64,000 nucleotides of DNA, taken from NCBI RefSeq assembly GCF_001679665.1, contig NZ_CP013244.1:1930980-1994979 (forward strand), written 5' to 3'. The first letter of the stretch is position 1, and the number at the start of each line of letters is the position of its first letter. Position numbers and translations under genes: made by a program. Below, one piece after another: positions 37,037 through 42,509 of the stretch. Below the pieces are notes generated by a model, which was not told where the DNA came from, searched no databases, and worked only from the letters and a program-made list of their open reading frames with translations. Source of the stretch: Candidatus Viadribacter manganicus (GTDB lineage: Bacteria > Pseudomonadota > Alphaproteobacteria > Caulobacterales > Aquidulcibacteraceae).

Positions 37037-38142
37037 TTAAGAAACCCTAGCGAAACCGGCTTGGTCGGCACTTGCCCAACGGCGTTTGAGGCTCAGCGCC
37101 TCAGCAACGTGGATTCGGCGCACCGCATCCGAACCATCGAGGTCGGCGATGGTGCGGGAAACTTTCAAAGTGCGGTGATAGGCGCGCGCCGAAAGCGACA
37201 AGGATTCCGCCGCCTTTGCAAGCAAAGCCGCACCTGGAGCATCAGGTGTCGTATGACGCTCAAGCGCCGGCATATCGAGCATCGCATTGAGCCCCGCGCC
37301 ACGCGCCGCCTGTGCTTCGCGCGCCCGCGCCACACGAGCAGCCGCCTCGGCCGTCCCCTCAACCGGTGGCGGCAAGGTCAAATCCGCTGCCGCCGCTTGA
37401 ATCCGCGGAATTACTTGAAGTTTCGATGCTGCACTCGGTGGCTGGCTCCCGGCAAACGCTGCGCCAGCATTGACTTTCCGGCGCCCGGCGGGCCGACGAA
37501 GAGGATGTTGTGCGCACCGGCGGCCGCGATTTCGAGCGCGCGCTTGCCTTGCTCTTGACCGCGCACGTCGCGCAAATCAGGCACGTTCGCGCCGGTGACG
37601 AGTTCTCCGCGCTCGGGCGCTTTCAGCGCCGCGCCACCACGAAAATGATTGATCAGCGCCAATAGCGAAGGCGCAGCAACCACTTCTCCGCCTGCCCACG
37701 CGGCCTCGGAGCCGCACGCCTCCGGACAAATGAAAGCTGCGTCCATTGCGTGCGCGGCCATCGCCGCGAGCAACGCGCCCGGTGCAGACGCAAGCGATCC
37801 ATCGAGCCCGACTTCGCCGAAACACACCATGCCATCGAGCGCGTCATGCGGCAGCGCGCCAATCGCAGCCATCATCGCAAGCGCGATCGGAAGATCGTAG
37901 CGCGTCCCCTCCTTCGGCATATCGGCAGGTGCGAGATTGACGATGAGACGTCCCGCTGGGATCGCCAGACCGATCGAAGCAAACGCCGCGCGAACGCGCT
38001 CTCGCGATTCAGAGACGGCTTTGTCGCCCAAACCGACGATCACGACGCCAGGCGTGCCGCCGGTCATCTGCACCTGAACTTCGACTCGACGAGCTTCGAG
38101 ACCGGCGAAAGCGACGGTGGTTGCGTTGGCACAGGTCTGCAT
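37037..38142 (-). pseudogene. comM: comM/YifB Mg-chelatase-like ATPase, internally deleted and frameshifted
   Basis: The N-terminal fragment (38142 to stop at 37411) has the Lon-like ChlI domain ([39 protein letters not shown]) and Walker A GPPGAGKS. It leaves family homology after QRLPGA and stops 10 codons later. The C-terminal fragment, in another frame and ending at 37037, resumes at about QAAAADLTLPPPVEG and contains RVARAREAQAARG and LSARAYHRTLKVSRTIADLDG. A full ComM is about 510 aa; about 150 residues carrying Walker B, sensor and arginine-finger segments are missing. A mobile element also separates it from its original upstream DNA. ComM is a branch-migration helicase for natural transformation; this copy cannot be functional. 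Confidence 0.9.
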
Positions 38143-38166: not shown

Positions 38167-38174
38167 GATGCGAG
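38167..38174. repeat. left target-site duplication
   Basis: GATGCGAG directly precedes the left end of the element and is repeated exactly at 42502-42509. Eight bases is typical for IS1-family insertions (8-9 bp). Confidence 0.93.
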
Positions 38175-38194
38175 GGTACTGTCTCAGTTTGAAA
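38175..38194 (+). repeat. left terminal inverted repeat
   Basis: GGTACTGTCTCAGTTTGAAA. It matches the reverse complement of 42482-42501 at 19 of 20 positions; the mismatch is T versus C at position 8. Confidence 0.93.
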
Positions 38195-38255
38195 TCGGAA
38201 TGACTGCATAGCTCCTAGCGGGGTTGACGCGGAAAGTGTATGCTTAGCGGTAGGC

Positions 38256-38642
38256 ATGACAGCAGAACCACGCCCTTGTCGATGGGATGTGTGCCCTGAT
38301 ACGGCGCTCTCCAACGGCTACCTATGCCCCAAGCACCTCGTAGAGGTTCTTGGTCGCGCGCCGACGCTTCCCATGCTGACAAGAGAACTTGTGGTCGCCG
38401 TTGGCGTCGGGCTCACGGCCGAGATTCTCGTCAAGCTCTCTGAGGCGCTCGCAGACGGCAGTCTTGTCTCAGCGATTTGGTCTCAAATGCCCTACAGTCG
38501 GCGCGCCAATATCACGCGCACCAAGACGGGCGCGCAGGACATCGAGCGCGCATGCCTCACACAAGAACAATTGTCGCCCGAAGAGCAGGCACGGCAGCTG
38601 ACCTTACTCAGAAAGATCGTGGCAGGTACACATAATGCCTAA
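38256..38642 (+). CDS. passenger protein with putative zinc knuckle, unknown function
   Basis: 128 aa. The N-terminus holds C8, C13, C24 and H27 (CRWDVC...LCPKH), a spacing that could bind zinc. The middle is hydrophobic/helical (TRELVVAVGVGLTAEILVKLSEAL). I do not recognise the family. It is the first gene after the left end and overlaps the next gene by 8 bp. TTGACG at 38224 and TATGCT at 38239 lie upstream but are too close together to be a standard -35/-10 pair. Confidence 0.65.
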   Translation: MTAEPRPCRWDVCPDTALSNGYLCPKHLVEVLGRAPTLPMLTRELVVAVGVGLTAEILVKLSEALADGSLVSAIWSQMPYSRRANITRTKTGAQDIERACLTQEQLSPEEQARQLTLLRKIVAGTHNA

Positions 38643-38868
38643 AGGCCCACGCGGAGAGAAGCGCCCAGCGGACGTAATAGGCAACGCCATTAAGGTGGCG
38701 AGGCTTGCCGTTGGAGACGAAGAAGAAACCGTCATTGATGACGGGAAAGACCCTGCGGCTAAGGCTCTAGGAGCTAAAGGCGGCAAGGCACGCGCTAAAA
38801 GCCTGAGCGCAAGGAAGCGCTCTGAGATCGCGAAGAAGGCCGCAGCTAAACGCTGGAAGAAGAAGTGA
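38635..38868 (+). CDS. small basic protein with AKGGKAR...EIAKKAA..RW module
   Basis: 77 aa. The N-terminal GEKRPADVIGNAIKVARLA segment is followed by an acidic stretch and a very basic C-terminal tail (residues 47-77) with AKGGKAR, LS and EIAKKAAAKRW, ending in lysines. The tail is nucleic-acid-binding in character. The same module opens the P63C protein encoded at 39167-40210 (20 of 28 positions identical). It overlaps the previous gene by 8 bp and the next by 4 bp, so the three form one translationally coupled operon. Function unknown. Confidence 0.7.
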   Translation: MPKGPRGEKRPADVIGNAIKVARLAVGDEEETVIDDGKDPAAKALGAKGGKARAKSLSARKRSEIAKKAAAKRWKKK

Positions 38869-39170
38869 AGCGCGCGCTCGCCGCCGCACTGCTTCTCGCC
38901 GCTTGCGCCAGCGAGCCAATCCAGCCGGTTGAGCCGCTGAACTTGGACCCGCTCGCGTTCGAGGAAATCCAACTATCTATCGAAGTCCCGTCGCCTATAC
39001 CGGAAGGCGCGACGCTGAATGGGCGCGAACTATCCCGCACCGTGACTGTCGATCACCCCACGGTCACCGCGATCTGCCGCAACGGCTGGGTTTCGTATTC
39101 TCAGCACCGGCGCGGGACGTGCTCCGGCCATCGCGGCGTTCGGGAGTGGGTGAACCGGCCCGCTGACTAG
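38865..39170 (+). CDS. putative lipoprotein with DUF3761-like domain
   Basis: 101 aa from a GTG overlapping the previous stop by 4 bp. A short signal sequence ends in LLLAAC, a lipobox with the cysteine at residue 14. The C-terminus (about 66-96) has the pattern CRNGWVSYSQHRRGTCSGHRGVREW, which resembles DUF3761 (small secreted cysteine-containing domain). The role is unknown. The stop shares CTAG at 39167-39170 with the convergent P63C gene. Confidence 0.65.
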   Translation: MKRALAAALLLAACASEPIQPVEPLNLDPLAFEEIQLSIEVPSPIPEGATLNGRELSRTVTVDHPTVTAICRNGWVSYSQHRRGTCSGHRGVREWVNRPAD

Positions 39171-40210
39171 ATGCCCTTGCCGTCATCCTTTTCCTGATCG
39201 TAGTCGAGCGGAAGCATCGGCGTGTCGCCGTGCCTCGGGTAGTGCTCGTTGAGCAGATTCATAAATCCCGCCCACGACTTGCTGACTTTCATCAGCGCGA
39301 CCACGGCACCCAAGTGCTCCTTGAGCTTCGGGTAGCCGATATTGCCGGTGAGGCTTTGAAAGTATTTTGCGGTTGGCCGACCATCTTCGTTGCGCGGCGT
39401 GACGCGTTGCAGCTCCGCGAGAACACCGGGAGCAAGCCGCTTGTAAACAATGTCGTTTGTGAGAATGCCAAAGTAGCGAGGCCGTTGAACCGACTCCTCT
39501 GGAAACTCCAGACCGCGAAGCCGGAACATGTGTTCGTAGTAGTCGGCTGGAAACGTTTGAACGTAAGCCTGCAATTCCTTCGCGATCCACGCCTCTAGAA
39601 TCTTTGCGAGCGCTTGCTTGGCGCGGTCGCGCTGGTAGCCAGTGGCCTCATCAACAAGAGCGACGATGCCGACGCGAGCGAAGCCTCGGATGAGGATTTC
39701 GCACTTCAGCGCGATGCCAGCTTGCTGCTTCTGAAGCACTCCAGCTTCACGCGCTTTGAGCACGGCTTCGCAGAGGTCCGCCAAGAGGATCGCGTCGAAA
39801 CCGTGCGCCCTAACACCCTCTGGCGTAACGAACGAAATCGGGTTGGCGAATCTCTCGGCTAATTCGTTGGAAATATAGGGATTAACCGACTTTCGCGAGA
39901 CGAAAAGCTCAAGTCGATTCATACCTGCGATCATCGATCCGCCGCGCGCCATGCCCAGCGCATCGGTGAAGCCGCCTTGGGTCAAAACCCGCGTGCCGTC
40001 CTCCAGCACGTAACAAGGGATTACGGCGTCACCAATCTTAAGCGGATGGTCAGGCGACCCGTGGGTCGCCTTGAGCACCTTTGTATTCCAGCGCGCCGCA
40101 GCGGCTTTCTTGGCGATCTCATGCCTCTCCTCGCCAGAGAGCTTGAGCATCCGAGCCTTGCCGCCCTTGGCGCGGCCTACTGGTTCCTTGGGGTCCGATT
40201 CGTCTGTCAT
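39167..40210 (-). CDS. P63C-domain protein
   Basis: The frame is open from 40540 across the transposase promoter; the start at 40210 (MTDESDPKEPVGRAKGGKAR) is the sensible one and gives 347 aa. Residues 13-41 are the basic AKGGKAR/EIAKKAAAARW module shared with the 77-aa passenger. The remainder matches the P63C family (GFTDALGMARG, FVTPEGVRAHGFDA, ADLCEAVLKAR, LVDEATGYQ, and C-terminal GYPKLKEHLGAVVALMK). P63C proteins have no established biochemical function. No Shine-Dalgarno is visible; the gene is divergent from the transposase. Confidence 0.82.
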   Translation of the reverse strand: MTDESDPKEPVGRAKGGKARMLKLSGEERHEIAKKAAAARWNTKVLKATHGSPDHPLKIGDAVIPCYVLEDGTRVLTQGGFTDALGMARGGSMIAGMNRLELFVSRKSVNPYISNELAERFANPISFVTPEGVRAHGFDAILLADLCEAVLKAREAGVLQKQQAGIALKCEILIRGFARVGIVALVDEATGYQRDRAKQALAKILEAWIAKELQAYVQTFPADYYEHMFRLRGLEFPEESVQRPRYFGILTNDIVYKRLAPGVLAELQRVTPRNEDGRPTAKYFQSLTGNIGYPKLKEHLGAVVALMKVSKSWAGFMNLLNEHYPRHGDTPMLPLDYDQEKDDGKGI

Positions 40211-40239
40211 AATTGACGAATGCCAGCGAATCGAGCCTA

Positions 40240-40303
40240 ATGCAAGCATTATCGTATTCATGCTAGCAATATGCTTGACTGCAAGCATAAAGTTCAGTAT
40301 GAA
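40240..40303. promoter_or_regulatory. transposase promoter overlapping ATGCTTG/CAAGCAT palindromes
   Basis: A good sigma-70-type promoter for the transposase: TTGACT (40275-40280), 17-bp spacer, TATGAA (40298-40303). The -35 box lies inside the inverted repeat ATGCTTG-ACTG-CAAGCAT (40271-40288). Two related copies, ATGCAAGCAT (40240-40249) and ATGCTAGCAAT (40260-40270), lie just upstream toward the P63C start. The clustering suggests an operator controlling both divergent genes. Identity of the binding protein is unknown. Confidence 0.6.
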
Positions 40304-40309
40304 ATAGAA

Positions 40310-41197
40310 ATGGCCAACGTGCTCCCCCTCGCAAAACGCGTTCAAATCCTGAACCTGCTCTGTGAGGGCGTGAGCCTCCGGGCGATCTCCCGCCTCCAAG
40401 ACGTGAGCATCAACACCGTATCCAAGCTCTTGGTGGATGCTGGCGAGACCTGCCTCGATCTTCACGACCAGCTCGTTACGCACGTCGAAGCCAAGAACGT
40501 GCAGTGCGATGAAATTTGGTCGTTCTGCTACGCCAAGCAAAAGAACGTCCCGACTGCGAAAGCCGCGCCCGCTGAAGCTGGCGACGTGTGGACGTGGACC
40601 GCGCTGGACGCTGACTCAAAGCTGATGATTTCTTACATGGCGTCTGGCCGCACGGGCTCGGCCGCTGAGACGTTCATGCAAGACGTGGCGCGTCGCATCA
40701 CCGGCCGCCCGCAAATCACGTCAGACGGTTTCACAGCGTATCCAAACGCAGTGCGCGTCGCGTTCGGCAAGAACGTGGACTTCGCGCAGCTTGTGAAAAC
40801 CTACGGTCCGGATTTCGGCGCCGGTCCTGAGCGGAAGTATTCTCCCCCGGTTTGCACCGGCGCCCACAAGGTTGTGCGCGAAGGCAACCCGGATCAATCG
40901 AAGATCTCAACCAGCCACGTTGAGCGCGCCAATCTCACCATGCGCATGGGCATGCGCCGCTTTACGCGCCTGACCAACGCGCACTCAAAGAAGTACGCGA
41001 ACCACCTCTACGCGCTCGCGCTGTTTTTCATGCACTATAATTTTGTACGACAACACAAAGCGCATAAGCTCTCACCAGCAATGGCGGCGGGGCTTACCGA
41101 TCGCCTTTGGTCGATGGAAGATATTGCTGAGCGAATTGACGTCCGCGCAAACGTTCCGAAGCCGCGCGGACCCTACAAAAAGCGGTCCGAGGCATGA
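40310..41197 (+). CDS. IS1-family-like DDE transposase
   Basis: 295 aa from ATG at 40310 ([17 protein letters not shown]); an in-frame ATG at 40271 lies within the promoter and is unlikely. An N-terminal helix-turn-helix ([25 protein letters not shown]) replaces the zinc finger of IS1 InsA. The catalytic core shows D67 (QCDEIWSF), D139 (ITSDGFTAY) and E205 ([11 protein letters not shown]), then the conserved [14 protein letters not shown] segment. A single ORF without frameshifting resembles the ISMhu11-like subgroup. The -10 box ends 6 bases before the ATG and no Shine-Dalgarno is present, so the mRNA may be leaderless. Confidence 0.88.
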
Positions 41198-41281
41198 CGA
41201 ACCCCCACATGTCGCAACTTGATATTAAACTATCCGTGCATTATGTTGCACACATCAGCGCGGCGTGTTCACACGTCGCAC

Positions 41282-41314
41282 CCCCCAGGTTCCGGCCTGG
41301 GGGTTTCGCTTTTC
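41282..41314 (+). terminator. intrinsic terminator after the transposase gene
   Basis: CCCCCAGG (41282-41289), 6-base loop, CCTGGGGG (41296-41303): a perfect 8-bp GC stem followed by TTTCGCTTTTC. It lies between the transposase stop and the NYN gene start at 41328 and so should insulate the two. Confidence 0.7.
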
Positions 41315-41327
41315 TGGGGTGCGCGCA

Positions 41328-41978
41328 ATGACTATACGCGCCGCCTTCTACGTTGACGGGTTCAACGTTTACCACGCGCTGAAGCGACTAGAACAACCGC
41401 ACCTCAAATGGCTTGATTGGCATGCGCTTGGAACGCTGCTCATTCCAAGCAGGAGCGAGACGCTTGAGAAAGTGGTGATCTGCACGGCGATCACGACAAC
41501 AAACCCCGGCAAGCAGGATCGCCACCGTCGATACATCACCGCGCTTGAATCTAAGGGTGTCGTTTGCCTGCGTGGTCACTTCGCAGACGAGGAGCGCAAA
41601 TGCCCTGACTGCAGCTACACCTGGGAAAAGCCGGTCGAGAAACAGGGAGACGTGAACCTAGCCCTAAGTGTTATTGACGACGCTCATCGAGATAACTTTG
41701 ACCATTGCTATCTTGTGACGGCGGACGGCGATCAGGTGGCGACAGCGAAGCTGCTAAAGCAACGCTTCCCCGCGAAGCGTTTGACGACGCTGGTCATCAC
41801 TGGGCATCGCCACAACCACGCTATTCTCCATGTGGCCGACGCCAAAATAACGATCAGCGAAAACCACCTTGAGAGGTGCGTGTTTCCAAAGCTTGTCCCC
41901 GGAACGCCAGCGGTCATTCGTCCCTCTGAGTATGATCCGCCGGCAGACTGGGTTCATCCTTCGCAGCGCCCTACATAG
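41328..41978 (+). CDS. NYN-domain (PIN-like) putative RNase
   Basis: 216 aa from 41328 (MTIRAAFYVDGFNVYHALKR); an upstream in-frame ATG at 41265 would run through the terminator. The NYN fold is marked by D10 and N13 (VDGFN), D108 (KQGDVNLALSVIDDA) and D133/D135 (VTADGD), the acidic residues expected to bind metal. A CxxC pair (C92, C95) lies between. Relatives (LabA/DUF88 group) are predicted endoribonucleases, and some act in toxin-like or defence contexts. Its role inside a transposon is unknown. Confidence 0.83.
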   Translation: MTIRAAFYVDGFNVYHALKRLEQPHLKWLDWHALGTLLIPSRSETLEKVVICTAITTTNPGKQDRHRRYITALESKGVVCLRGHFADEERKCPDCSYTWEKPVEKQGDVNLALSVIDDAHRDNFDHCYLVTADGDQVATAKLLKQRFPAKRLTTLVITGHRHNHAILHVADAKITISENHLERCVFPKLVPGTPAVIRPSEYDPPADWVHPSQRPT

Positions 41979-41989
41979 ATCGCGCATGG

Positions 41990-42009
41990 GGTCGTCTGGG
42001 GAGACGACC
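41990..42009 (+). promoter_or_regulatory. perfect stem-loop directly before a small ORF
   Basis: GGTCGTCT, loop GGGG, AGACGACC: 8 perfect pairs. AGGAG and the ATG at 42022 follow immediately (12 bases from stem to start). There is no T-run, so it is not a normal terminator; it could control translation or protect the 5' end after processing. Confidence 0.5.
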
Positions 42010-42021
42010 ATAGGAGCGAGG

Positions 42022-42198
42022 ATGCGCGGACTGTTTCTCTTTAACGCGCTGTTCGCCGCCATCATTATTGGCTGGATCGCTGCTGCGGATAGCGTCCCGA
42101 TCAACACTGTCGGTGAGGCCGTCAGCTACTATGGCCCATGGCTCCTCATACCGGGGGTGTTCCTGCTGCTGGCGGTGATGTGGAAACGCAAAGCGTGA
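42022..42198 (+). CDS. small two-helix membrane protein, passenger
   Basis: 58 aa starting MRGLFLFNALFAAIIIGW, with AGGAG seven bases before the ATG. Two hydrophobic helices (about 3-21 and 36-53) and a basic C-terminal end (WKRKA). The frame is open further upstream, but the Shine-Dalgarno and hydrophobic start decide for 42022. The family is not recognised. Confidence 0.55.
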   Translation: MRGLFLFNALFAAIIIGWIAAADSVPINTVGEAVSYYGPWLLIPGVFLLLAVMWKRKA

Positions 42199-42236
42199 AG
42201 TTAGCCCCCCCTGGCCAAAGAGAGCTATAAAGCCGT

Positions 42237-42353
42237 ATGACCGCGAAACAGGTTCTGGCGATCCTAGCGAGCGCAGCCGTCCCGATTGCCGGAATGCTCG
42301 TCGCTTGGGCGTTGGTGACTTGGTTAAACGGTGGTTTCCAGATCGCGGGATAA
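42237..42353 (+). CDS. 38-aa single-helix membrane peptide, passenger
   Basis: ATG at 42237 encodes 38 aa beginning MTAKQVLAILASAAVPIAGM, with one strongly hydrophobic helix (about 5-30) and stop TAA at 42351-42353. It lies 38 bp after the 58-aa gene. The ribosome binding site is weak (AGAGAG about 16 bases upstream). It could be a real small membrane protein or chance; no homologue is recognised. Confidence 0.35.
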   Translation: MTAKQVLAILASAAVPIAGMLVAWALVTWLNGGFQIAG

Positions 42354-42481
42354 CTCGGAACAAACCGAGCCAAATCAGCCACTTGCAACCTGTGGAAAAC
42401 TTTTCCGGCTTTTGAACTGGCTCAAAGCGCCAAAAACCCCAGCGATTACAACGCTGTAAGGCCTAAGCATAAAAGTTCAGT

Positions 42482-42501
42482 TTTCAAACTGAGGCAGTAC
42501 C
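42482..42501 (-). repeat. right terminal inverted repeat
   Basis: Reads GGTACTGCCTCAGTTTGAAA on the minus strand, 19 of 20 identical to the left end. Confidence 0.93.
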
Positions 42502-42509
42502 GATGCGAG
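42502..42509. repeat. right target-site duplication
   Basis: GATGCGAG, identical to 38167-38174. Joining the flanks restores GATGCGAG followed by TTATCGCAC, a small palindrome (TGCGA-GTTA-TCGCA). The 128 bp from here to the dolP-like stop hold no gene I can support; they include AT-rich sequence near 42630. Confidence 0.93.

Follow-up and report, generated by a model that had tools for sequence, protein, structure and literature searches.

Why should two otherwise unrelated proteins encoded on opposite strands of one transposon share a 28-residue module? The question is raised by a 64,000-nucleotide stretch of Candidatus Viadribacter manganicus (contig NZ_CP013244.1, positions 1,930,980 to 1,994,979), called here the window, in which a cargo-carrying IS1-like transposon encodes a 77-amino-acid protein, p77, and a 347-amino-acid protein with a P63C domain. 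Judged from sequence, the module is very probably a previously undescribed DNA-binding domain, because a matching motif tends to be found upstream of the genes that encode it and this motif shifts with one key residue. We consider it likely that the module is a hairpin that binds DNA, that p77 is a resident regulator acting at two operators and that P63C is a phage-type cargo protein equipped with the same reading head.

The module shared by p77 and P63C

Residues 47-74 of p77 (AKGGKARAKSLSARKRSEIAKKAAAKRW) and residues 14-41 of the P63C protein (AKGGKARMLKLSGEERHEIAKKAAAARW) share 20 identical residues out of 28, as the original prediction, made from the letters of the window, had stated. This identity is well beyond that produced by shuffling p77 (200 shuffles; the best 28-residue window reached at most 12 identities, mean 8.65), and BLASTP aligned the two proteins across 44 residues with E=2e-10. 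The DNA sequences encoding the two modules match in 52 of 84 bases, and the same codon is used at nine of the 20 shared residues, with 8.8 expected from codon usage. Since codon sharing is at the chance level, the similarity is old and does not reflect a recent copy; gene conversion or recent duplication between the modules was ruled out on the same counts. In an alignment of 19 modules, the GG, R, IA, AA and RW positions were invariant or nearly so.

A profile of the 28 module positions, run against 240 genomes of the window's class, returned at least 28 matches at E<=0.01 and at least 24 at E<=1e-5; these numbers, like those for p77 and transposase places given below, are lower bounds because in some genomes part of the candidates was scored. 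The loci at E<=1e-5 comprise 20 p77 places, three P63C frames and one unclassified 58-amino-acid frame (G141). In a sample of the phylum, the module was matched at E<=0.001 in 6 of 200 genomes. A common low-complexity tail, named beforehand as the outcome contrary to the prediction, is not what this distribution describes. The P63C module is not confined to this mobile unit, since it also heads P63C proteins in the phages ST104, Lodos and Petra; the module is thus older than this element.

The P63C label was upheld (PF10546, residues 204-296, E=2.6e-28, 98.9 bits against a gathering score of 26.1), and the window protein matches phrog_2384, a family of unknown function, over nearly its whole length (E=4.7e-113). 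The same family is the only PHROG matched by most p77 members (26 of 27). Searches of curated collections (Pfam and NCBI-type profiles) with the window p77 matched no family of its own; the KGG repeat (PF10685) was not among its matches and was reached by 1 of 27 p77 members, at E=0.021.

The predicted structure of p77 consists of three helices, with the module occupying helices 40-56 and 59-74 (predicted local distance difference test score, pLDDT, 72.9; predicted template modelling score, pTM, 0.31). In the model of the P63C protein (pTM 0.46), the module forms helices 16-22 and 26-42, at low confidence, ahead of the core. Position 19 of the module is in the second helix in both models. The P63C core aligned with the N-terminal domain of granulovirus Orf22 (Z 6.1, 96 residues at 3.3 A) and with DdrC (Z 5.5, 85 residues at 3.3 A), Z values below 8 that may reflect only a common arrangement. 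Bro-N entries of BFVD were reached at E 3e-3 or weaker, and the window protein matched phrog_2899 (anti-repressor Ant) at E=5.5e-5. The Pfam Bro-N family did not match the window P63C protein, a Foldseek search of its model against the PDB returned nothing at E<=0.001, and PDB sequence searches with P63C and p77 returned nothing at E<=1. The BRO-N fold is known for DNA binding.

Half-sites upstream of P63C genes and their covariation with the module

When 6-mers were ranked in the 200 bp upstream of 71 deduplicated loci with module-bearing P63C, the top-ranked were CTTGCA, in 46 loci (5.7 expected), and AAGCAT, in 39 (5.6 expected). AAGCAT was present in 1 of 12 loci then classed as module-free against 1.2 expected, the 12 including the module-bearing L158, L246 and L259. 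Two or more half-sites were found upstream of 48 of 76 module-bearing P63C genes in this first set, of 0 of 7 module-free ones and of 10 of 266 other genes. The half-site set was drawn from the 6-mer ranking, so these counts reuse the same loci. A held-out set of 82 loci, which is independent, gave at least two half-sites at 21 of 40 loci with the module and at 0 of 42 without it (p=7e-9). For this set, 47 loci already seen, 32 duplicates, eight loci at edges and five with an unknown start had been dropped; one of its module-free loci, L456, begins with the apparent end of a module. Since 2 of 165 P63C loci match the transposase and 2 match p77, the motif upstream of P63C genes is not the transposon's.

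The upstream DNA also varies with the module. With core identity controlled, upstream 6-mer similarity correlated with module identity (partial r 0.34 for all pairs), and the partial r was 0.31 below 60% core identity and 0.345 below 50% (0 of 500 permutations each). The correlation of upstream similarity with core identity was 0.08 for all pairs and -0.14 and -0.18 without close relatives. Module position 19 had the largest effect on the upstream motif, followed by positions 11 and 7. In the first set, Ile at position 19 went with GCTTGC (44 of 52 loci), Ser with CGTRCA (5 of 5), Val with GCTATC, GCTAAC or GCTAGC (4 of 5) and Arg with TATCTT or GATAGA (3 of 6). The held-out loci repeated the first two pairings (Ile with GCTTGC, 15 of 22; Ser with CGTRCA, 6 of 8), ten loci with other residues being mixed.

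Several P63C genes outside transposons (L122, L295, L296 and L297) occupy locations where immunity or defence genes are typically found. In phage ST104 the gene directly follows cI; in L295 it adjoins a restriction endonuclease gene, and an Abi-family gene is nearby in L296 and L297, on plasmids. P63C as a known defence gene was considered and set aside, with no PADLOC family matched at E<=0.01.

The transposon, its predicted operators and the constancy of p77

Bases 38175-42501 of the window form one 4,327-bp mobile element of IS1-like type that carries cargo. Its terminal inverted repeats (TIRs) are 88% complementary, and an exact 8-bp target-site duplication (TSD) lies outside them. The parts of the element are as follows:

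38167-38174: left copy of the TSD, GATGCGAG (8/8)
38175-38200: left TIR, starting GGTACTGTCTCAGTTTGA, 88% complementary to the right end
38240-38257: predicted left operator, ATGCTTAGCGGTAGGCAT, upstream of the p77 operon, one mismatch to ATGCTT-N6-AAGCAT (pattern search)
38256-38642, plus strand: 128-amino-acid open reading frame (ORF) overlapping the p77 start, no match in family searches
38635-38868, plus strand: p77, 77-amino-acid regulator candidate, with module residues 47-74 encoded by bases 38773-38856
38865-39170, plus strand: 101-amino-acid cargo ORF with DUF3761 (PF12587, E=9.4e-11)
39167-40210, minus strand: P63C cargo protein, 347 amino acids, ATG at 40210, with module (14-41), BRO-N-like core (about 49-193) and P63C domain (204-296)
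40240-40249: additional half-site, ATGCAAGCAT, between P63C and the second operator (by eye)
40271-40288: predicted second operator, ATGCTTGACTGCAAGCAT, an exact match, with the P63C and transposase genes diverging on either side
40275-40280 and 40298-40303: promoter-like pair TTGACT/TATGAA with a 17-bp spacer, overlapping the second operator (by eye)
40310-41197, plus strand: IS1-like transposase (NF033558, E=2.1e-17, 63.7 bits, cut-off 100)
41328-41978, plus strand: NYN-domain cargo gene (PF01936, E=2.4e-5), matching the defence candidate HEC-09 of PADLOC (E=8.2e-42); start by eye, 41265 in the ORF list
42476-42501: right TIR
42502-42509: right copy of the TSD, GATGCGAG

The gene that adjoins the transposon at 37037-38142, on the minus strand, is one that we take to be comM-like. 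It appears broken: the frame 37411-38142 stops just past a motif, and a piece is found on the opposite strand (37312-37473), which suggests a small inversion with deletion.

The predicted operator is an 18-bp inverted repeat, ATGCTT-N6-AAGCAT, that precedes p77 and also overlaps the transposase promoter. The two sites listed above are the only ones in the window that match this pattern with at most one mismatch (0.13 expected). With up to two mismatches, 66 matches were found in 53 elements against 7.2 expected, and alternative spacers of 2-12 gave 6-20 matches in the same elements, a collection in which seven stretches are not TSD-bounded and L189 and L191, copies of one element, are both counted. 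Elements were then sorted into those with canonical and those with other p77 by a motif of our own definition, L189 and L191 counting once. Of the canonical-p77 elements, 28 of 39 have the operator on the left side and 25 of 33 have it ahead of the transposase; for the 13 elements lacking a canonical p77 the counts are 0 of 13 and 0 of 12, respectively. Its position is regular. Among the 21 TSD-bounded elements with a left operator, 18 have its start 51-77 bp from the left end, and the transposase-side operator lies 40-43 nucleotides before the first profile-matched transposase residue in 25 of 25 cases; in the window and in Hoeflea it overlaps, by eye, the TTGAC of a promoter-like sequence. 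A third exact match in the same genome (1112901) is inside a 429-amino-acid frame with no transposon end near and was treated as unrelated.

The same plan is found on plasmids of Acidiphilium and Hoeflea. Forty transposase-matching loci were examined, fragments included, and 29 are bounded by TIRs and a target duplication of at least 7/8 (28 exact). All but one of these bounded elements measure 2.6-4.3 kb; the exception, L074, has a 9.1-kb pair of ends that is probably nested. The p77 gene starts within 1 kb of the left end in 26 of the 29 (partial in L103, on the opposite strand in L094 and L096) and is missing from L072, L101 and L104. The description of p77 and P63C as two passenger proteins was accordingly right for P63C and wrong for p77, which is a near-constant gene of the transposon. 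Co-occurrence, for which a profile search had been suggested, was also evident, as module loci are mostly p77 and P63C and, among at least 46 p77-type places in 385 genomes of the class (fragments counted apart), 29 have a transposase within 6 kb. In 27 of these 29 the transposase is on the same strand, 754-2050 bp downstream. Conversely, p77 is present at 29 of at least 36 transposase places, and three of the seven others end less than 1 kb from a contig end on the p77 side. Seventeen p77 places are unlinked to a transposase, and terminal-repeat-like sequence was found in 10 of 12 such loci examined. The p77 gene is under purifying selection, with a median ratio of nonsynonymous to synonymous substitution rates (dN/dS) of 0.25 over 715 unsaturated pairs from 51 sequences, the pairs not being independent.

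Other features of p77 and its surroundings were observed. Elements bounded by TIRs and TSD but lacking an intact transposase still keep p77 in L161, L162, L167, L170 and L172 (IMG/VR; 0.76-2.5 kb), L172 being only 763 bp long. In L194 (4001-4456) and L195, p77 is extended to a 152-amino-acid protein, possibly a regulator fused to another domain. A Mesorhizobium relative of p77 (L008, 4001-4243), annotated as RNA-binding protein and located downstream of NYN and GYD genes, is without the module, which was likely lost by a frameshift. A small, highly variable ORF (61-128 amino acids) overlaps or abuts the p77 start codon in the window (38256-38642) and in L006, L007, L075, L080, L081, L082, L085, L086 and L093, an arrangement that suggests translational coupling with a fast-changing partner. 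The genome of the window also has, at about 2.92 Mb of the contig, a second, diverged IS1-like cargo element (L072), whose ends differ and which carries a Fic gene matching the SoFic model; it has neither p77 nor the operator.

The cargo differs between elements, with toxin-antitoxin and defence genes among it. Proteins of the HTH-ImmA (helix-turn-helix) type were found in L007, L077, L080, L086, L089, L092, L097 and L099, and Pfam, run on 40 of the 64 cargo frames outside the window that reach 100 amino acids (the frames being mechanical ORFs), identified SocA-Panacea, Fic, SDH protease and AAA/STAND genes. PADLOC, run on ten proteins, matched six at E<=0.01, including RmrA, RmrT, SoFic and PDC-S13. 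RosmerTA is presented as a phage defence system in passages of PMC10440598.

P63C recurs as cargo of phage type and is rare overall. It was found at 11 places in 10 of 385 genomes, seven with frames longer than 300 amino acids, and three of these seven, that of the window included, are in this type of transposon. IMG/VR added L160, L177, L181 and L189 (with copies L190 and L191), in which p77 is followed by P63C on the other strand; L160 and L177 are without a TSD boundary, and the available sequence of L177 has no transposase. The module is present in all seven of these cargo proteins, in a degenerate form in L189 and a truncated one in L177. Fragments of both p77 and P63C are found in L200, and L392 has P63C beside the transposase together with p77, a partial module and a pair of terminal-repeat-like ends separated by about 1.6 kb. 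In L101, one of the elements without p77, P63C is divergent from the transposase with ATGCTTGCC-N9-GGCAAGCAT between them, as expected if P63C can act as the switch. Co-evolution of the p77 and P63C modules inside one element was not supported, the two being no closer within elements than between them (16 of 120 permutations reached the observed sum; five elements, with L177 left out for its truncated module).

Interpretation and comparison with known systems

The common operator motif and its covariation with the module support the proposals that the module binds nucleic acid and that both proteins contact a common partner, which would probably be DNA operators. We picture the module as a small DNA-binding domain built as a helical hairpin, the second helix of which would read short inverted half-sites of the type ATGCTT or GCTTGC. 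As the resident regulator of the transposon, p77 would most likely bind two operators, of which the first, just inside the left end, would serve its own operon and the second overlaps the transposase promoter; this binding would hold both the operon and the transposase in check. P63C would be cargo of phage type, with the same module before the BRO-N-like core and the P63C domain. It probably regulates itself at the operator shared with the transposase, because it has the same reading head and is divergent from the transposase across one shared operator, and in the window element it may compete or cooperate with p77. We infer repression rather than activation, and the oligomeric state and the interplay of p77 with P63C are to be read in the same conditional terms, as is the physical contact of the module with its operators. 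A wider version is held more tentatively, with slightly less than an even chance of being right: the module would be a portable, hitherto unrecognized DNA-binding unit, with residue 19 as a simple specificity determinant, that cargo transposons use as a built-in transposase switch and that phage P63C regulators use as well; P63C cargo would therefore be able from the outset to plug into the transposon operators, and in L101 P63C may have replaced p77 as the switch.

Several observations weigh against reading the module as a specific DNA-binding head. Fewer than two half-sites precede 28 of 76 module-bearing P63C genes in the first set and 19 of 40 in the held-out set, and the GCTATC/GCTAAC/GCTAGC class is also seen at 3 of the 42 held-out genes that lack the module. 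With Ala, Asn or Gln at position 19 the motif classes of the first set are mixed; Arg is not decisive, as L158 and L218 have it and keep GCTTGC; and among held-out Ile19 loci six are without any class and one has TATCTT. No Val19 or Arg19 loci are present in the held-out set, and relatedness was controlled in part in the covariation analysis. Eight canonical-p77 elements have neither operator by pattern, and six divergent p77s (L091, L092, L094, L095, L096 and L099) are without the operator, all with Ile at position 19. A P63C without the module is located about 150 bp before a transposase in L287 (2013-3503), the available sequence of which has no p77 or transposon end. The structure models are moderate (pTM 0.31 for p77; 0.46 for P63C, its module part at low confidence).

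Could the operators be real and read by something else? They might be recognized by the transposase, through autoregulation as in classical insertion sequences (IS), by the BRO-N-like core of P63C or by a host factor, the module being a nonspecific basic tail. Transposase and operator do co-occur, one operator overlaps the transposase promoter, and the BRO-N fold, which the P63C core resembles in prediction, is of a DNA-binding kind. However, the motif precedes P63C genes although the transposase profile matches in 2 of 165 of these loci, P63C genes with the same core and no module lack the motif (0 of 7 and 0 of 42), p77 elements have the operator without a BRO-N-like core, and motif similarity tracks the module more than the core. 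We regard this alternative as improbable. In a further alternative, a little less probable still, the module would serve for RNA binding or for protein docking (between p77 and P63C, or of both to a host protein), and the promoter motifs would be a side effect of mobile-gene promoters. The strongly basic sequence, the name "RNA-binding protein" given to one p77 relative by the Prokaryotic Genome Annotation Pipeline (PGAP) and the recurrence of p77 and P63C together in some elements would agree with it, but residue-level covariation with an upstream DNA palindrome is unexpected for RNA binding or protein docking, and the p77 and P63C modules are no better matched within one element. Convergence on a common low-complexity basic tail, which the lysine- and alanine-rich composition might suggest, is very improbable given the restricted distribution of the module and its (nearly) invariant positions.

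A DNA-reading module would matter in several respects. No function had been assigned to the P63C domain and no curated family to p77; a common reading head, together with its predicted operator, supplies a testable function for each. The residue classes at position 19 offer a candidate DNA-recognition code with natural variants. The predicted operators suggest how transposons that transport toxin-antitoxin and defence genes, in named Alphaproteobacteria and in the window's class, may be regulated.

No description of a p77 switch, of the operator or of a DNA-binding role of P63C was found in the open-access literature searched. Three bacterial papers mention P63C once each, as a hypothetical protein or a listed gene (PMC6536676, PMC13414232, PMC10868621), and the N-terminal module as a DNA-reading head and the promoter motif are absent from those passages. 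The P63C protein may resemble phage regulators of the BRO/antirepressor type in its predicted core (Z<=6.1) and matches phrog_2899, and it differs from them in having no Pfam Bro-N match.

The IS1 family is characterized by short TIRs and a target duplication of 8-9 bp. The ends of the window element are of this type, the NF033558 match of its transposase points to the same family, and relatives 59% identical are annotated as IS1 family transposases. In contrast, the transposase scores below the curated cut-offs (NF033558, 63.7 of 100 bits; PF03400, 18.8 of 24.1) and the elements reach 2.6-4.3 kb with cargo. Based on these sequence comparisons, the window element is related to the IS1 family and is not filed as a member of it.

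Toxin-antitoxin genes are found in transposition modules of the Tn3 family, and PMC7157771 proposes a regulatory role for them in transposition. Toxin-antitoxin passengers are common to both systems; here the transposase is of another family, and p77 is the constant gene while the toxin-antitoxin and defence genes vary. IS elements with passenger genes are already known under the concept of transporter IS (tIS), as described in passages of PMC9330008. The window element resembles them in its single transposase gene, TIRs, 8-bp TSD and unrelated passengers enclosed by one pair of IS ends, with cargo that differs from element to element. To this plan, elements of the window type add a near-constant, regulator-like p77 at the left end and a common operator before p77 and the transposase.

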